Shown one piece after another: positions 8,907 to 29,378 of a stretch of 33,246 nt of DNA (position 1 is its first letter; each line of letters starts with the position of its first letter). The notes under the pieces were generated by a model that did no database searches, was not told where the DNA came from, and saw only the letters and a program-made list of their open reading frames with translations. Source of the DNA: a virus; IMG/VR virus record IMGVR_UViG_3300038454_000018, positions 1 through 33,246 of that record. One strand, 5' to 3'. The position numbers were made by a program, and so were the translations under genes.

Positions 8907-9163
8907 ATGCAGGAAAAGAAGGTCTTGACCGGGTTCGGGATCGCCGTGCTGGATCGAGGATTTGTTTACGTCGGCAATGTCGAAATATCTGACGACTGGT
9001 GCGTGATCACAAATGCGAAGAACATCCGGCGGTGGAAAACCCAGCGGGGGCTGGGCCAACTCGCGCTAGAGGGACCGCAGGAAAACACAGAGATCGATGC
9101 GGTCGGTACGGTGCGCGCACCCATGCGGGCAGTGATTTCGCTGATCGATTCGGAGGAAGCGAA

Positions 9164-9176
<13 letters not shown>
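8907..9176 (+). CDS. conserved phage hypothetical protein, 89 aa
   Basis: ATG 8907 has GGGAGG 7 nt upstream; the frame is open further upstream through the array, but that part is not coding. The pattern VYVGNVEI, DWCVITNAKNIRRW, RGLGQLALEG and DAVGTVRAP recalls a small protein family seen in many siphophage early regions, of unknown function. It is mainly beta and has no membrane segment. It overlaps the next gene by 13 nt. The role is not known. Confidence 0.65.
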
Positions 9177-9503
<327 letters not shown>

Positions 9504-11342: not shown

Positions 11343-11522
11343 ATGAGACTCCGAATCCGAAGAGACTGCCACGGCTACGCGGACGCCATTGTCGATCTCG
11401 ATCAGAATTGCCAGGTAATAATGCATCTGACATCCGGAGCGTATCTCAACGAGCGCAATGCAGAGATGTTTGAGAGGCTGTTGATTAAGCTGGATGGCTG
11501 CACCCCGCAGCGAACAGAATAA
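11343..11522 (+). CDS. hypothetical protein, 59 aa
   Basis: ATG 11343 lies 5 nt after the previous stop, with GGAGGG of the upstream coding end as a ribosome site. Beta-rich N-terminus followed by a helix (NERNAEMFERLLIKLDG). The stop overlaps the leader of the methyltransferase gene, whose ATG is 2 nt further on. No family recognised. Confidence 0.55.
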   Translation: MRLRIRRDCHGYADAIVDLDQNCQVIMHLTSGAYLNERNAEMFERLLIKLDGCTPQRTE

Positions 11523-11523
11523 C

Positions 11524-12594
11524 ATGAAGGTCTACTACAACGAAATCGATTCTTACGCCGCACAGTGGTTGCGGAATCTGATTTCCGGCGGCCTGATATC
11601 TCCTGGAGACGTCGATGAAAGATCAATCGCGGACGTCAAGCCCGACGACATCCGGGGATATACCCGATGCCATTTCTTCGCCGGTATCGCCGGCTGGGAC
11701 TACGCCCTACGTCTTGCCGGATGGCCAGATGATGTTCCCGTTTGGACCGGATCTTGCCCCTGTCAACCATTCTCCTGTGCGGGGAAAAGACAGGGGGCAA
11801 AAGATCCGCGGCATCTCTGGCCCGAGTTTCGACGTCTCGTTGCCGAGTGCCATCCTGCAACAATATTTGGAGAGCAGGTTGGTAGCAAGGATGGACGTCA
11901 ATGGCTCGCCGGAGTACGCGCTGACCTGGAAGCATTGGGATATGCCGTCGGGGCCGCCGATCTGTGCGCTGCGTGCGTCGGGGCGCCGCACATCAGACAA
12001 AGGTTGTACTTGGTGGCGCACGCCGGATGCCATGTGCGGGGGTGCGCAGGAAGCGGAGAAGAGGCTGGCGGGAGGACATGCACTACGTCTTCAGGATCAG
12101 GTCGGTCTGGCCGGCTGGCCGACGCCTCAAGTCTTCGATTCTACGGATTGCAAGAGCGGGAACAAGGAGCAGAGAAAAGCGAAAGGGGGATGTTGCAATC
12201 TTCGGGAATACGTGGAGCTGGCGGGTTGGTCGACGGCATCGGCACGGGACTGGAAGGACGGACGGAGCAATCAGCACGAGAAGAACGCGAGGTCGCTGAA
12301 CGAGGTTGCGGTGCATGGTCTGACGCCATCGCAATCGAGTGCCGGGACGGGAAAGCCAGGCGGATACCAGCTGAACAGCGCTTTTTCCCGTTGGTTGCAA
12401 GGTTTTCCGCCGGAGTGGGACGAGGCGGCGCCGGCGAAGATGGCGCGTACAAAGTCCTCCGTGACCCGGCGACGGGGAGAAGCATCGGGCAAATGCCATG
12501 GCGGATAGGGCAGCTCAAAGCGTATGGCAATGCAATCGTGCCGCCCCTTGCGGCGGAATTCGTGAGGGCATTTAAGGAGCTAGCGAATGGATAA
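11524..12594 (+). CDS. DNA cytosine-C5 methyltransferase
   Basis: 356 aa. It transfers methyl groups from S-adenosylmethionine to C5 of cytosine. Motif I is HFFAGIAG (50-57), motif IV GSCPCQPFS has catalytic Cys80, motif VI appears as GEQV (116-119, usually ENV), motif VIII is QRLYLVA (159-165), and motif X is YGNAIVPPLA near the end. Residues 170-300 form a low-complexity Gly/Arg/Glu-rich region in place of a clear target-recognition domain, and the same DNA holds a long second frame. Phage Dcm-like enzymes usually protect the genome from host restriction. It begins 2 nt after the previous stop. Confidence 0.85.
   Translation: MKVYYNEIDSYAAQWLRNLISGGLISPGDVDERSIADVKPDDIRGYTRCHFFAGIAGWDYALRLAGWPDDVPVWTGSCPCQPFSCAGKRQGAKDPRHLWPEFRRLVAECHPATIFGEQVGSKDGRQWLAGVRADLEALGYAVGAADLCAACVGAPHIRQRLYLVAHAGCHVRGCAGSGEEAGGRTCTTSSGSGRSGRLADASSLRFYGLQEREQGAEKSERGMLQSSGIRGAGGLVDGIGTGLEGRTEQSAREEREVAERGCGAWSDAIAIECRDGKARRIPAEQRFFPLVARFSAGVGRGGAGEDGAYKVLRDPATGRSIGQMPWRIGQLKAYGNAIVPPLAAEFVRAFKELANG
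11615..12508 (+). CDS. overlapping frame inside the methyltransferase gene, phage-conserved pattern
   Basis: A 297-codon open frame, shifted by one nucleotide inside the methyltransferase gene. Its product carries patterns I recall from annotated phage proteins: EYALTWKHWDMPSGPPICAL, RASGRRTS, repeated GWPTP or GW-x-T-x-A-x-DW segments, and GYQLN..FSRWLQGFPPEWD. Such sequences occur in phages as proteins overlapping or replacing the recognition part of Dcm-like enzymes. ATG 11615 has no good ribosome site, so it may be entered by frameshifting or reinitiation, or be a non-expressed remnant. Confidence 0.45.
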   Translation: MKDQSRTSSPTTSGDIPDAISSPVSPAGTTPYVLPDGQMMFPFGPDLAPVNHSPVRGKDRGQKIRGISGPSFDVSLPSAILQQYLESRLVARMDVNGSPEYALTWKHWDMPSGPPICALRASGRRTSDKGCTWWRTPDAMCGGAQEAEKRLAGGHALRLQDQVGLAGWPTPQVFDSTDCKSGNKEQRKAKGGCCNLREYVELAGWSTASARDWKDGRSNQHEKNARSLNEVAVHGLTPSQSSAGTGKPGGYQLNSAFSRWLQGFPPEWDEAAPAKMARTKSSVTRRRGEASGKCHGG

Positions 12595-12802
12595 GTGCGA
12601 CAAGCTGACTTACGATGAAATGAAGCTGATCGGCGAATTCTGGGGGTTCCTGTGGATCGACAAGGACGGCGTATTATCGCGAGCAACATTGAAACAAGTT
12701 CTCGTCGCGTGCCGATCCGGGCGACACGAAGCATGGGACAGGGAACTGAAACTTCAACGTCTTGAGAGTAAGTTGAGAAGGAATCTGGGAGAGAAAACGT
12801 GA
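12587..12802 (+). CDS. hypothetical protein, 71 aa
   Basis: ATG 12587 overlaps the end of the methyltransferase gene by 8 nt, and AAGGAG lies upstream. The product has a small helical core (KLTYDEMKLIGEFWGFLW), a DKDG turn that recalls but does not meet EF-hand spacing, and a charged C-terminus. It ends in a GTGA overlap with the next methyltransferase, so it belongs to that operon. Confidence 0.55.
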   Translation: MDKCDKLTYDEMKLIGEFWGFLWIDKDGVLSRATLKQVLVACRSGRHEAWDRELKLQRLESKLRRNLGEKT

Positions 12803-13563
12803 AGCCTTATTACGACGAAGACGGGATAACGATTTATTGCGGGGATTGCAGGGAGATATTGCCGAATTTGGAAGACGAATCCATCGATATGATATTTACC
12901 GATCCTCCATACGGGCACCGCAACAACGATAATGACTTACAATCATCGTTACGAGTCGGAGTGAAGGGGGCGCGCCAAAACAATGCCATGCCGATTCGCA
13001 ATGACGATGAAAAATCAACGCGCGAAGTTATTGATTGCGCGCTGATCGAGGCCGTGCGTATATTGAAGCGTGACTGCTGCTGCTGCTACTGCTGCGCCGG
13101 CGGCGGCGGTCCCCGGCCGAGTTTCGCATGGACGGCCAGCAGAATGGACGACAAGGGGCTTTCATTTTTCCAGGCCGTCGTATGGGACAAAAGCGCCAGA
13201 GGAAACGGGCTTGGATGGAGATATCGAAGAAATTACGAATTCGTCATGATCGCGCATCGCATCGGTGGAAAGTTGCTTTGGGCGAACGATAATATTACAA
13301 CGCCTAATATCGTTAGGGATACGCCTGTAATAGAAAGGCAACATCCAAACGAAAAGCCGATACCGCTTGTTGCGCGATTCCTCCGCCTTCATGCATCAGT
13401 CGGTCAAATCGTATTAGACCCATTCATGGGAAGCGGAACAACATTGCGGGCCGCGAGGGATTTGGGGCTTCGCGCAATCGGCATCGAGATCGAAGAGCGT
13501 TATTGCGAAATCGCCGTCCGTCGATTGCAGCAGCAGGTATTGAATTTCGGGGAGGCAAAATGA
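12799..13563 (+). CDS. DNA adenine-N6 or cytosine-N4 methyltransferase (DPPY)
   Basis: 254 aa from GTG 12799. The catalytic DPPY is at residues 35-38 and the AdoMet-binding DPFMGSGTT at 207-215, the beta-class order. DPPY points to adenine N6. A run of Cys before GGGGP (residues 93-105) is a trait I recall in related phage enzymes, where CCCC precedes GGGGP. HPNEKP (182-187) and a C-terminal IGIEIEERYCEIA complete the family pattern. It probably guards phage DNA from restriction together with the cytosine enzyme just upstream. Target site unknown. Confidence 0.85.
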   Translation: MKPYYDEDGITIYCGDCREILPNLEDESIDMIFTDPPYGHRNNDNDLQSSLRVGVKGARQNNAMPIRNDDEKSTREVIDCALIEAVRILKRDCCCCYCCAGGGGPRPSFAWTASRMDDKGLSFFQAVVWDKSARGNGLGWRYRRNYEFVMIAHRIGGKLLWANDNITTPNIVRDTPVIERQHPNEKPIPLVARFLRLHASVGQIVLDPFMGSGTTLRAARDLGLRAIGIEIEERYCEIAVRRLQQQVLNFGEAK

Positions 13564-28106: not shown

Positions 28107-29378
28107 ATGAGCAGCCCGACACTCGCCGAAATACAGACGCAGATCTCGAATATCGTAAAGCTCTGCGACGAGGCGCGCAAGTGGGCCGGCGTCAACACGC
28201 CGAACCACATCGGCCTCGAAGACACGATCATCCAGGCGCTCGAAACTGACTACAGCGCCGACGTGATGACCGGTCTTGCTTCGATGCGTGCCGGTCTCGA
28301 CGCGAGTATCAGGGCAGGGGCCGCAGCGCTCGCTCCTCTGATCCTTGAGTACGGAAAATACATCAAGGCGCCAGAGAATGACATCGGGAGTATTTTGAAG
28401 CGCATTTACGTTTACAACCACGACAACACGCAGAAGATCACATCGCGTCAATTCACTTACGCGACGCCAACGGCGGGATTGTCGAACGTCGGCAATGGAA
28501 CGATAAATCGCCTGACGACCGACGATTACGGTTACGCGATCGAAAACTGCTCAGCAGATGCAAAGGTCGTCAAGTGCGTCGCCGACGCGAACTCGGGCGC
28601 TACGAAGCACGAGGAGGTGTTCGAGTTTCGCGGCGCGACCGCCTCGAAAGACGAGCTGATCCGAACGGGCTCGGGCAAGGTCGCGCAAGTCAAATGCATG
28701 TCGGCGCGCACGAGTTCCGACTACACGGACAACCCGAGTTTCGCGCAGTATTCGGGGGCCATCGGCGCTGTGACGGATTTGTACGGCTGGACCGTCACGA
28801 CGATTGCGAAACTCGACATCGACGCGACCAATTACTACCGCGATTATGCCGGCGAGTCTCCGGCGCCGGCGTCTGTGAAGTTCACCGACAACAACAAGAT
28901 CGTGCAGGCGTTCAGCCGGCGGAATGTCGCGATCGATCGCGGCCGGCCTTACTACGCGCAGATCGCCTACAATCGTCAGATCGGAAGTTGCGACGGGACG
29001 CTCAAGCTGACCGTCGGAAACGTCAACGCGACAGTTTCGCTCGTCGCACAAACCGGATGGAACATACTCCGGATCGCGATCGGCGCGAACAGCTGGTACA
29101 AGACGTTCGACAAGCAGGACCCGACGTTCGAGATCGAGTTATCGAGCCGCACGGGCGGGCAACTTCTTATCGATGACTTCGTTTTCGGGCCCTTCGAGAA
29201 CTTCGACGGTCTCTGGTATGCGCCCGTCGGCGGATCAACGCCATTCCTCGTGGACGACGTCTTCACGTGGACCGACTCGGAAGTCGGCTCCAAGATCCAA
29301 CACTTCCTGTGGAAATACTTCGGCATGTACTGGCCACATTCGACCGGCGGTGGGATTACATGGGCGGATCCGGCGTAA
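28107..29378 (+). CDS. putative virion protein with beta-sandwich domain, 423 aa
   Basis: An N-terminal helical part (residues 1-90, LAEIQTQISNIVKLCDEARK) is followed by a long beta-rich region with YYRDYAGESPAPASVKF, YAQIAYNRQIGSCDGTLKLTVGN and TGGQLLIDDFVFGPFENFDG. This pattern resembles carbohydrate-binding-module-like beta sandwiches seen in phage surface or fibre proteins. The C-terminus is Trp-rich (FTWTDSEVG, LWKYFGMYWPHS). A role in head or tail decoration or host binding is inference. It starts 3 nt after the previous stop. Confidence 0.55.
   Translation: MSSPTLAEIQTQISNIVKLCDEARKWAGVNTPNHIGLEDTIIQALETDYSADVMTGLASMRAGLDASIRAGAAALAPLILEYGKYIKAPENDIGSILKRIYVYNHDNTQKITSRQFTYATPTAGLSNVGNGTINRLTTDDYGYAIENCSADAKVVKCVADANSGATKHEEVFEFRGATASKDELIRTGSGKVAQVKCMSARTSSDYTDNPSFAQYSGAIGAVTDLYGWTVTTIAKLDIDATNYYRDYAGESPAPASVKFTDNNKIVQAFSRRNVAIDRGRPYYAQIAYNRQIGSCDGTLKLTVGNVNATVSLVAQTGWNILRIAIGANSWYKTFDKQDPTFEIELSSRTGGQLLIDDFVFGPFENFDGLWYAPVGGSTPFLVDDVFTWTDSEVGSKIQHFLWKYFGMYWPHSTGGGITWADPA

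Follow-up and report, generated by a model that had tools for sequence, protein, structure and literature searches.

C5-cytosine DNA methyltransferases made of two polypeptides are already known from M.EcoHK31I, whose small subunit was reportedly described by Lee, Kam and Shaw in 1995 as encoded within the large one, in another reading frame. In C5-methyltransferases a small domain, comprising target recognition and motif IX, is distinguished from a large domain with motifs I-VIII and X (PMC3404938). According to that source, M.EcoHK31I (YGGCCR) has motif IX in the small polypeptide and motifs I-VIII and X in the large one; M.AquI (CYCGRG) likewise consists of two polypeptides, split after motif VIII (PMC3404938). 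Here we describe a locus in a virus sequence, IMG/VR record IMGVR_UViG_3300038454_000018, of which the window analysed is a stretch of 33,246 nucleotides (nt). In the region of interest, positions 11524-12594, one frame (alpha, frame 0) encodes a predicted methyltransferase and the +1 frame nested in it encodes a second putative protein (beta). The most probable explanation, to which we assign a probability of roughly 0.86, is a two-subunit C5-cytosine DNA methyltransferase whose subunits would be nested in two frames of the same DNA.

The original prediction, made from the letters of the sequence, had seen two long family-like frames in this region, and protein searches with each frame bear this out. 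Alpha matches PF00145 (E 1.4e-16) and, over its full length, phrog_363 (E 3e-76; residues 2-355 to 10-317 of 327), and the 297-codon +1 frame matches phrog_1008 over most of the protein (E 4.9e-21; residues 16-279 to 14-288 of 329); a Pfam search with beta gave no match. The methyltransferase motifs that had been named, I, IV (PCQ), VI, VIII and X, are all found in alpha (residues 52, 79, 117, 158 and 335), motif VI reading EQV and not ENV. A motif check of the alpha chain found no motif IX, which is located in beta instead, so that alpha does not hold the combination of motif IX and recognition domain with the catalytic core that marks a one-chain enzyme; known two-chain members also lack motif IX in the corresponding chain (PMC3404938). 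In an AlphaFold2 (AF2) model of alpha, the mean predicted local distance difference test score (pLDDT) per ten residues is 73-97 in residues 1-150, 88-94 at the C-terminus and mostly below 50 in residues 170-335. The model thereby suggests a confident core and C-terminal helix and a disordered stretch opposite the recognition region of beta. Its best solved relatives are M.HaeIII and M.HhaI, and with the latter it superposes at Z 14.0 and a root-mean-square deviation of 2.7 over 160 residues; alpha models as the large domain only.

Stop codons in the alternative frames were compared with a null in which alpha codons are shuffled among synonymous positions, keeping protein and codon usage fixed. 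For the window alone, the +1 frame has a mean of 4.5 stops after shuffling and none in 0.19 % of shuffles, and the +2 frame has 8 stops against 8.1 expected. Across 145 non-redundant homologues only 8 stops were observed in the +1 frame against 471.9 expected, with 140 of the 145 genes free of them, whereas the +2 frame contained 1516 against 1375 expected. Restricting the count to 41 genes found with the alpha query only, and hence with no choice for an open beta, gave 6 stops in the +1 frame against 146 expected. Along the gene, the loss of +1 stops in 110 homologues has a sharp onset at alpha codon 40 and is gone past codon 340. The original prediction had said that stops in the second frame of homologues that keep the first would speak against it; over alpha codons 100-319 of these 110 homologues there are 0, where about 295 were expected. 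Single-chain relatives, treated in the same way as a control, showed no loss (145 stops against 155.6 expected), and at 163 of 163 loci with a separate beta, beta lies at +1 to alpha. The stop counts are not independent, since the homologues share ancestry; this does not affect the difference from the +2 frame and the control genes. These counts also bear on the idea that the +1 frame is open as a consequence of base composition and the conserved protein sequence of alpha. GC-rich DNA (mean guanine plus cytosine content 62 % among the homologues) does make long shadow frames common, and the window alone gives no more than the small fraction of shuffles quoted above; however, the deficit across the homologues is measured against a null that preserves the protein and codon usage of alpha, it is seen neither in the +2 frame nor in the control genes, and beta is largely open also in the few genes of 41-55 % GC. 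The stop-codon results already refute this explanation, and we put its probability close to nil.

Conservation was expressed as z scores over the 110 homologues, beta being scored against an alpha-synonymous null and alpha against the reverse null. Beta reaches z 20-116 from about residue 76 onward, the value of 116 falling at WLQGFPPEWD. For alpha the z scores are 43-107 as far as motif VIII, drop to 9-17 across residues 166-255, and climb again from CRDGK to motif X. Over most of 12002-12325, where beta has its recognition region, alpha is a variable linker, while the conserved CRDGK...FPL segment of alpha lies opposite motif IX of beta. Low complexity, which had been ascribed to alpha across the overlap, is accordingly found over about residues 166-255 and not over the whole overlap, because motifs I-VIII also lie within it. 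Residues 1-75 of beta score 6-12, against 5-7.5 in the untranslated stretch before, and look like an unconserved leader since their z is little above that of this stretch. Selection maintains both frames, and the dual coding is genuine; the earlier proposal to this effect is borne out by stop depletion, by conservation beyond the alpha constraint and by the initiation signals hidden in alpha that are described below.

The nature of beta is best judged from its single-chain and split relatives. Gene product 71 (gp71) of mycobacteriophage WillSterrel is a single uninterrupted chain with motifs I-VIII, LLPTP..DG repeats, LNPAFPEWMMGWPTGW and QLRIIGNGVVPQQA, in which the PTP repeats are followed by LNP..EWMMG.P..W and then motif X, all in one frame; it matches both phrog_363 (1-387) and phrog_1008 (194-390). 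Using hhalign, the beta profile aligned with the C-terminal half of WillSterrel gp71 at a probability of 95.5 (E 1.5e-8) and with the profile of the single-chain family at 92.0 (E 6.8e-7). Most of the WillSterrel relatives in mycobacteriophages are single-chain; in the few split ones the second half is nearly always at +1, and in Streptomyces phage Samy and Arthrobacter phage KBurrousTX alpha and beta are neighbouring genes. On the basis of the single WillSterrel chain and of these split and neighbouring forms, beta is taken as the small-domain part of a C5-cytosine methyltransferase; by these profile comparisons it is homologous to the recognition and motif IX half of the single-chain enzymes, in agreement with the recognition domain that had been suggested for the second frame. 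The beta peptides quoted in the original prediction are present, although its GWPTP "repeats" amount to one exact GWPTP accompanied by WWRTP and GWSTA; W.TP-type units number 0-6 per homologue, mostly 2-4. The assignment of motif IX rests on its position and its likeness to the known pattern, because only motifs I-VIII align when the single-chain enzyme profile is compared with the PDB.

Alternatively, beta could be an unrelated protein, overprinted de novo and with a function of its own such as anti-restriction or regulation. Its complete nesting and the lack of a Pfam match would fit, as would the finding that alpha largely determines residues 1-75 of beta, but an unrelated protein would hardly account for the same W.TP repeats and LNP..EWMMG.P..W standing in frame at the recognition and motif IX position of single-chain enzymes, or for an alpha without motif IX. 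We consider this origin unlikely, and it was dropped on the evidence of the WillSterrel gp71 sequence.

A Shine-Dalgarno (SD) core followed by a start codon is present at alpha codons 29-45 in 65 of the 110 homologues, against 20 ± 4.5 after synonymous shuffling. The codon of the conserved Arg33 is AGG in 31 % of cases against a background of 8.7 %, and that of the conserved Asp37, which builds the ATG, is GAT in 72 % against 38 %; through these codon choices a ribosome site and ATG for beta appear to be built inside alpha. A second route, also raised in the original prediction, is a programmed +1 frameshift that would yield a fusion of alpha (motifs I-VIII) with beta. Single-chain relatives of nearly this composition exist, and a frameshift would join the two halves; yet the scarcity of +1 stops already sets in at alpha codon 40, a long way 5' of where a shift would be useful, the region of codons 29-45 is enriched in SD sequences and start codons, and the fusion would be without motif X, which in this family lies back in frame 0. 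Since a frameshift needs neither an SD signal nor an open leader, internal initiation is favoured and the frameshift route appears very unlikely.

Certain points nevertheless weigh against the two-subunit enzyme. The beta profile found no match among PDB sequences up to E 10, the AF2 model of beta is poor (pLDDT 54, predicted template modelling score 0.22), and a search of PDB structures with this model gave nothing below E 0.5. The exact start of beta is uncertain because the first 75 residues are not conserved, and phage N15 and a few others must start beta later because of stops in their leader. That beta is translated at all is something we infer from sequence.

Within a two-subunit enzyme, alpha would serve as the catalytic large domain: it would bind S-adenosylmethionine, provide the catalytic Cys of the PCQ motif, and contribute motifs VI and VIII together with the C-terminal helix that carries motif X. 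Ribosomes would start beta internally, at a site concealed within alpha codons 27-41, and beta would supply the small domain, made up of a target-recognition region containing the W.TP repeats, together with motif IX. Assembled, alpha and beta would form a single active enzyme; it may modify the DNA of the phage itself, most probably as an orphan methyltransferase that guards against host restriction.

The motifs of alpha run in the order II-III-I-IV and not in the canonical order I-II-III-IV. When motif I was moved to the front in silico, the PF00145 score rose from 61.2 to 84.5 bits and the match extended to the start of the profile; profile alignment of alpha with single-chain enzymes skips motif I, and residue 1 of the alpha model pairs with residue 34 of M.HhaI. 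The order is common to the nested-class alphas aligned, whereas the single-chain and adjacent-split relatives examined keep the canonical one. A survey of natural circularly permuted C5-methyltransferases describes one type only, permuted in the variable region (PMC5944983); the order of alpha cannot be derived by simple circular permutation and does not appear among the types in that survey. It is no bar to membership of the family, because motif order varies in known C5-methyltransferases (PMC5944983).

Compared with the known systems, the locus is like M.EcoHK31I in having motif IX, as assigned here by position and pattern, in a separate polypeptide (beta) and motif X in the large one (alpha). 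The recognition domain of M.EcoHK31I is placed in the larger subunit in PMC3404938, whereas the recognition repeats here are in beta, which suggests that the assignment to the large chain cited there deserves a second look. The order II-III-I-IV also sets the locus apart from M.EcoHK31I, as compared by its published description, and M.EcoHK31I is part of a restriction-modification system, whereas the phage gene is apparently an orphan. The arrangement of M.AquI resembles the neighbouring genes of Samy and KBurrousTX, not the nested pair. WillSterrel gp71 has the same catalytic half and repeat/motif IX half as alpha and beta, but differs in its one frame, its canonical motif order and its lack of +1 stop depletion. 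The same nested pair is present in Kagunavirus K1ind2 (gp32/gp33) and Xanthomonas phage PhiXhv-28, where both coding sequences are called DNA methyltransferase and the annotation is silent on the nature of the second frame. Both frames are annotated in a few GenBank records (these two and fTaEco01) with the second frame unexplained, and alpha alone is annotated in N15 and BcepC6B. The label 'Mte8-like' used for K1 phages was traced to PMC5582158, where a function is not given.

The literature searched contained no description of the nested pair in phages. As far as that literature goes, the following are new: how widespread the arrangement is in phages, the tests for selection in each frame, the start site hidden in alpha, and the location of the recognition repeats in beta. 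Two alignment scans of viral contigs confirmed at least 564 and at least 592 relatives. We give even odds that these belong to a large class of phage C5-methyltransferases not yet described, with the domains encoded as two nested genes, the ribosome site hidden in codons of the catalytic gene, a variable number of W.TP units in the recognition domain and the unreported motif order II-III-I-IV; single-chain, adjacent-split and nested forms of the enzyme would then coexist in phages. Long same-strand nested genes with both products conserved have rarely been proven in bacteria and phages; in this case, which recurs in hundreds of phage contigs, the products of the two frames would be complementary parts of the same enzyme. 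The reading of beta would explain phrog_1008, and the series from single chain through split to nested forms is a natural one for studying the origin of overlapping genes. Much annotation gives one frame only or calls both 'DNA methyltransferase'; on this reading many phage methyltransferases are half-annotated, and cloning alpha alone would therefore probably fail.

The coordinates of the features are collected in Table 1; a further in-frame ATG for alpha lies at 11494.

Table 1. Positions in the window of the features of alpha and beta
Feature	Positions	Strand	Remarks
Alpha (frame 0)	11524-12594	+	ATG 11524 to stop 12594, 356 aa; predicted C5-cytosine methyltransferase large domain
Alpha domain order: motifs II, III, I, IV, VI, VIII, variable linker, X	11524-12594	+	
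Alpha motifs II (YYNEIDSYAAQWL) and III (GDVDERSI), 5' of motif I	11530-11628	+	Predicted from in-silico reordering and profile alignment
GGAG, Shine-Dalgarno-like	11605-11608	+	6 nt 5' of beta ATG, within alpha codons for PGDVDE
Beta (nested open reading frame, +1 relative to alpha)	11615-12508	+	ATG 11615 to stop 12508, 297 codons; predicted recognition domain (W.TP repeats) and motif IX
Beta N-terminal leader, residues 1-75	11615-11839	+	Open; sequence not conserved beyond alpha constraint
Alpha motif I (HFFAGIAGW)	11671-11697	+	
Alpha motif IV (GSCPCQPFS), predicted catalytic cysteine	11749-11775	+	P79, C80, Q81 invariant, 23 homologues
Beta conserved core opposite alpha motifs VI-VIII (LPSAILQQYLESRL...LTWKHWDMPSGPPICALRASGRRTSDKG)	11840-12001	+	z 45-56 over alpha-synonymous null
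Alpha motif VIII (VGAPHIRQRLY)	11977-12009	+	H156, R158, R160 invariant, 23 homologues
Beta predicted recognition region, W.TP units WWRTP, GWPTP, GWSTA	12002-12325	+	Beta z 20-57, alpha z 9-17
Beta predicted motif IX (QLNSAFSRWLQGFPPEWD)	12368-12421	+	Beta z=116.5, alpha z=41-54, same DNA
Alpha motif X (YGNAIVP)	12523-12543	+	G335 invariant, N336 nearly so, 23 homologues

Shortly downstream of the C5-methyltransferase, at 12799-13563, lies an N4/N6 DNA methylase (PF01555, E 4e-28), and the phage therefore has two DNA methyltransferases of different type. With such a neighbour, protection of phage DNA is plausible and may be the role of the nested pair.

Some homologues depart from the arrangement in Table 1. 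One of them (L033:1694-3070) has an insert of about 160 codons near motif VI that is open in both frames; in the beta frame it is like an HNH homing endonuclease by eye, with no Pfam match, and it recalls the out-of-frame HNH insert of ShiLan in mycobacteriophage methylases (PMC11855218). Another contig carries tandem alpha homologues (L031:765-1253 and L031:2290-3153), the upstream one inside a 757-codon open frame, and both have a beta match at +1. In a third (L002:2444-3394) the C-terminal part of alpha with motif X continues in the beta frame and motif IX was not seen, an arrangement that is either a natural rearrangement or a sequencing frameshift. A weak match in Pseudomonas phage SKa-4 lies in a structural gene region.

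Elsewhere in the window, positions 9066-9502 form a low-complexity tract that encodes YGDG-like repeats on the + strand and RPRTRT-like ones on the - strand; the long shadow frames there are a repeat effect. A nested open frame at 28574-29176, inside 28107-29378, had so few stops that 0 of 300 synonymous shuffles matched it, from the window sequence only; given the number of open reading frames tested, this may be chance.
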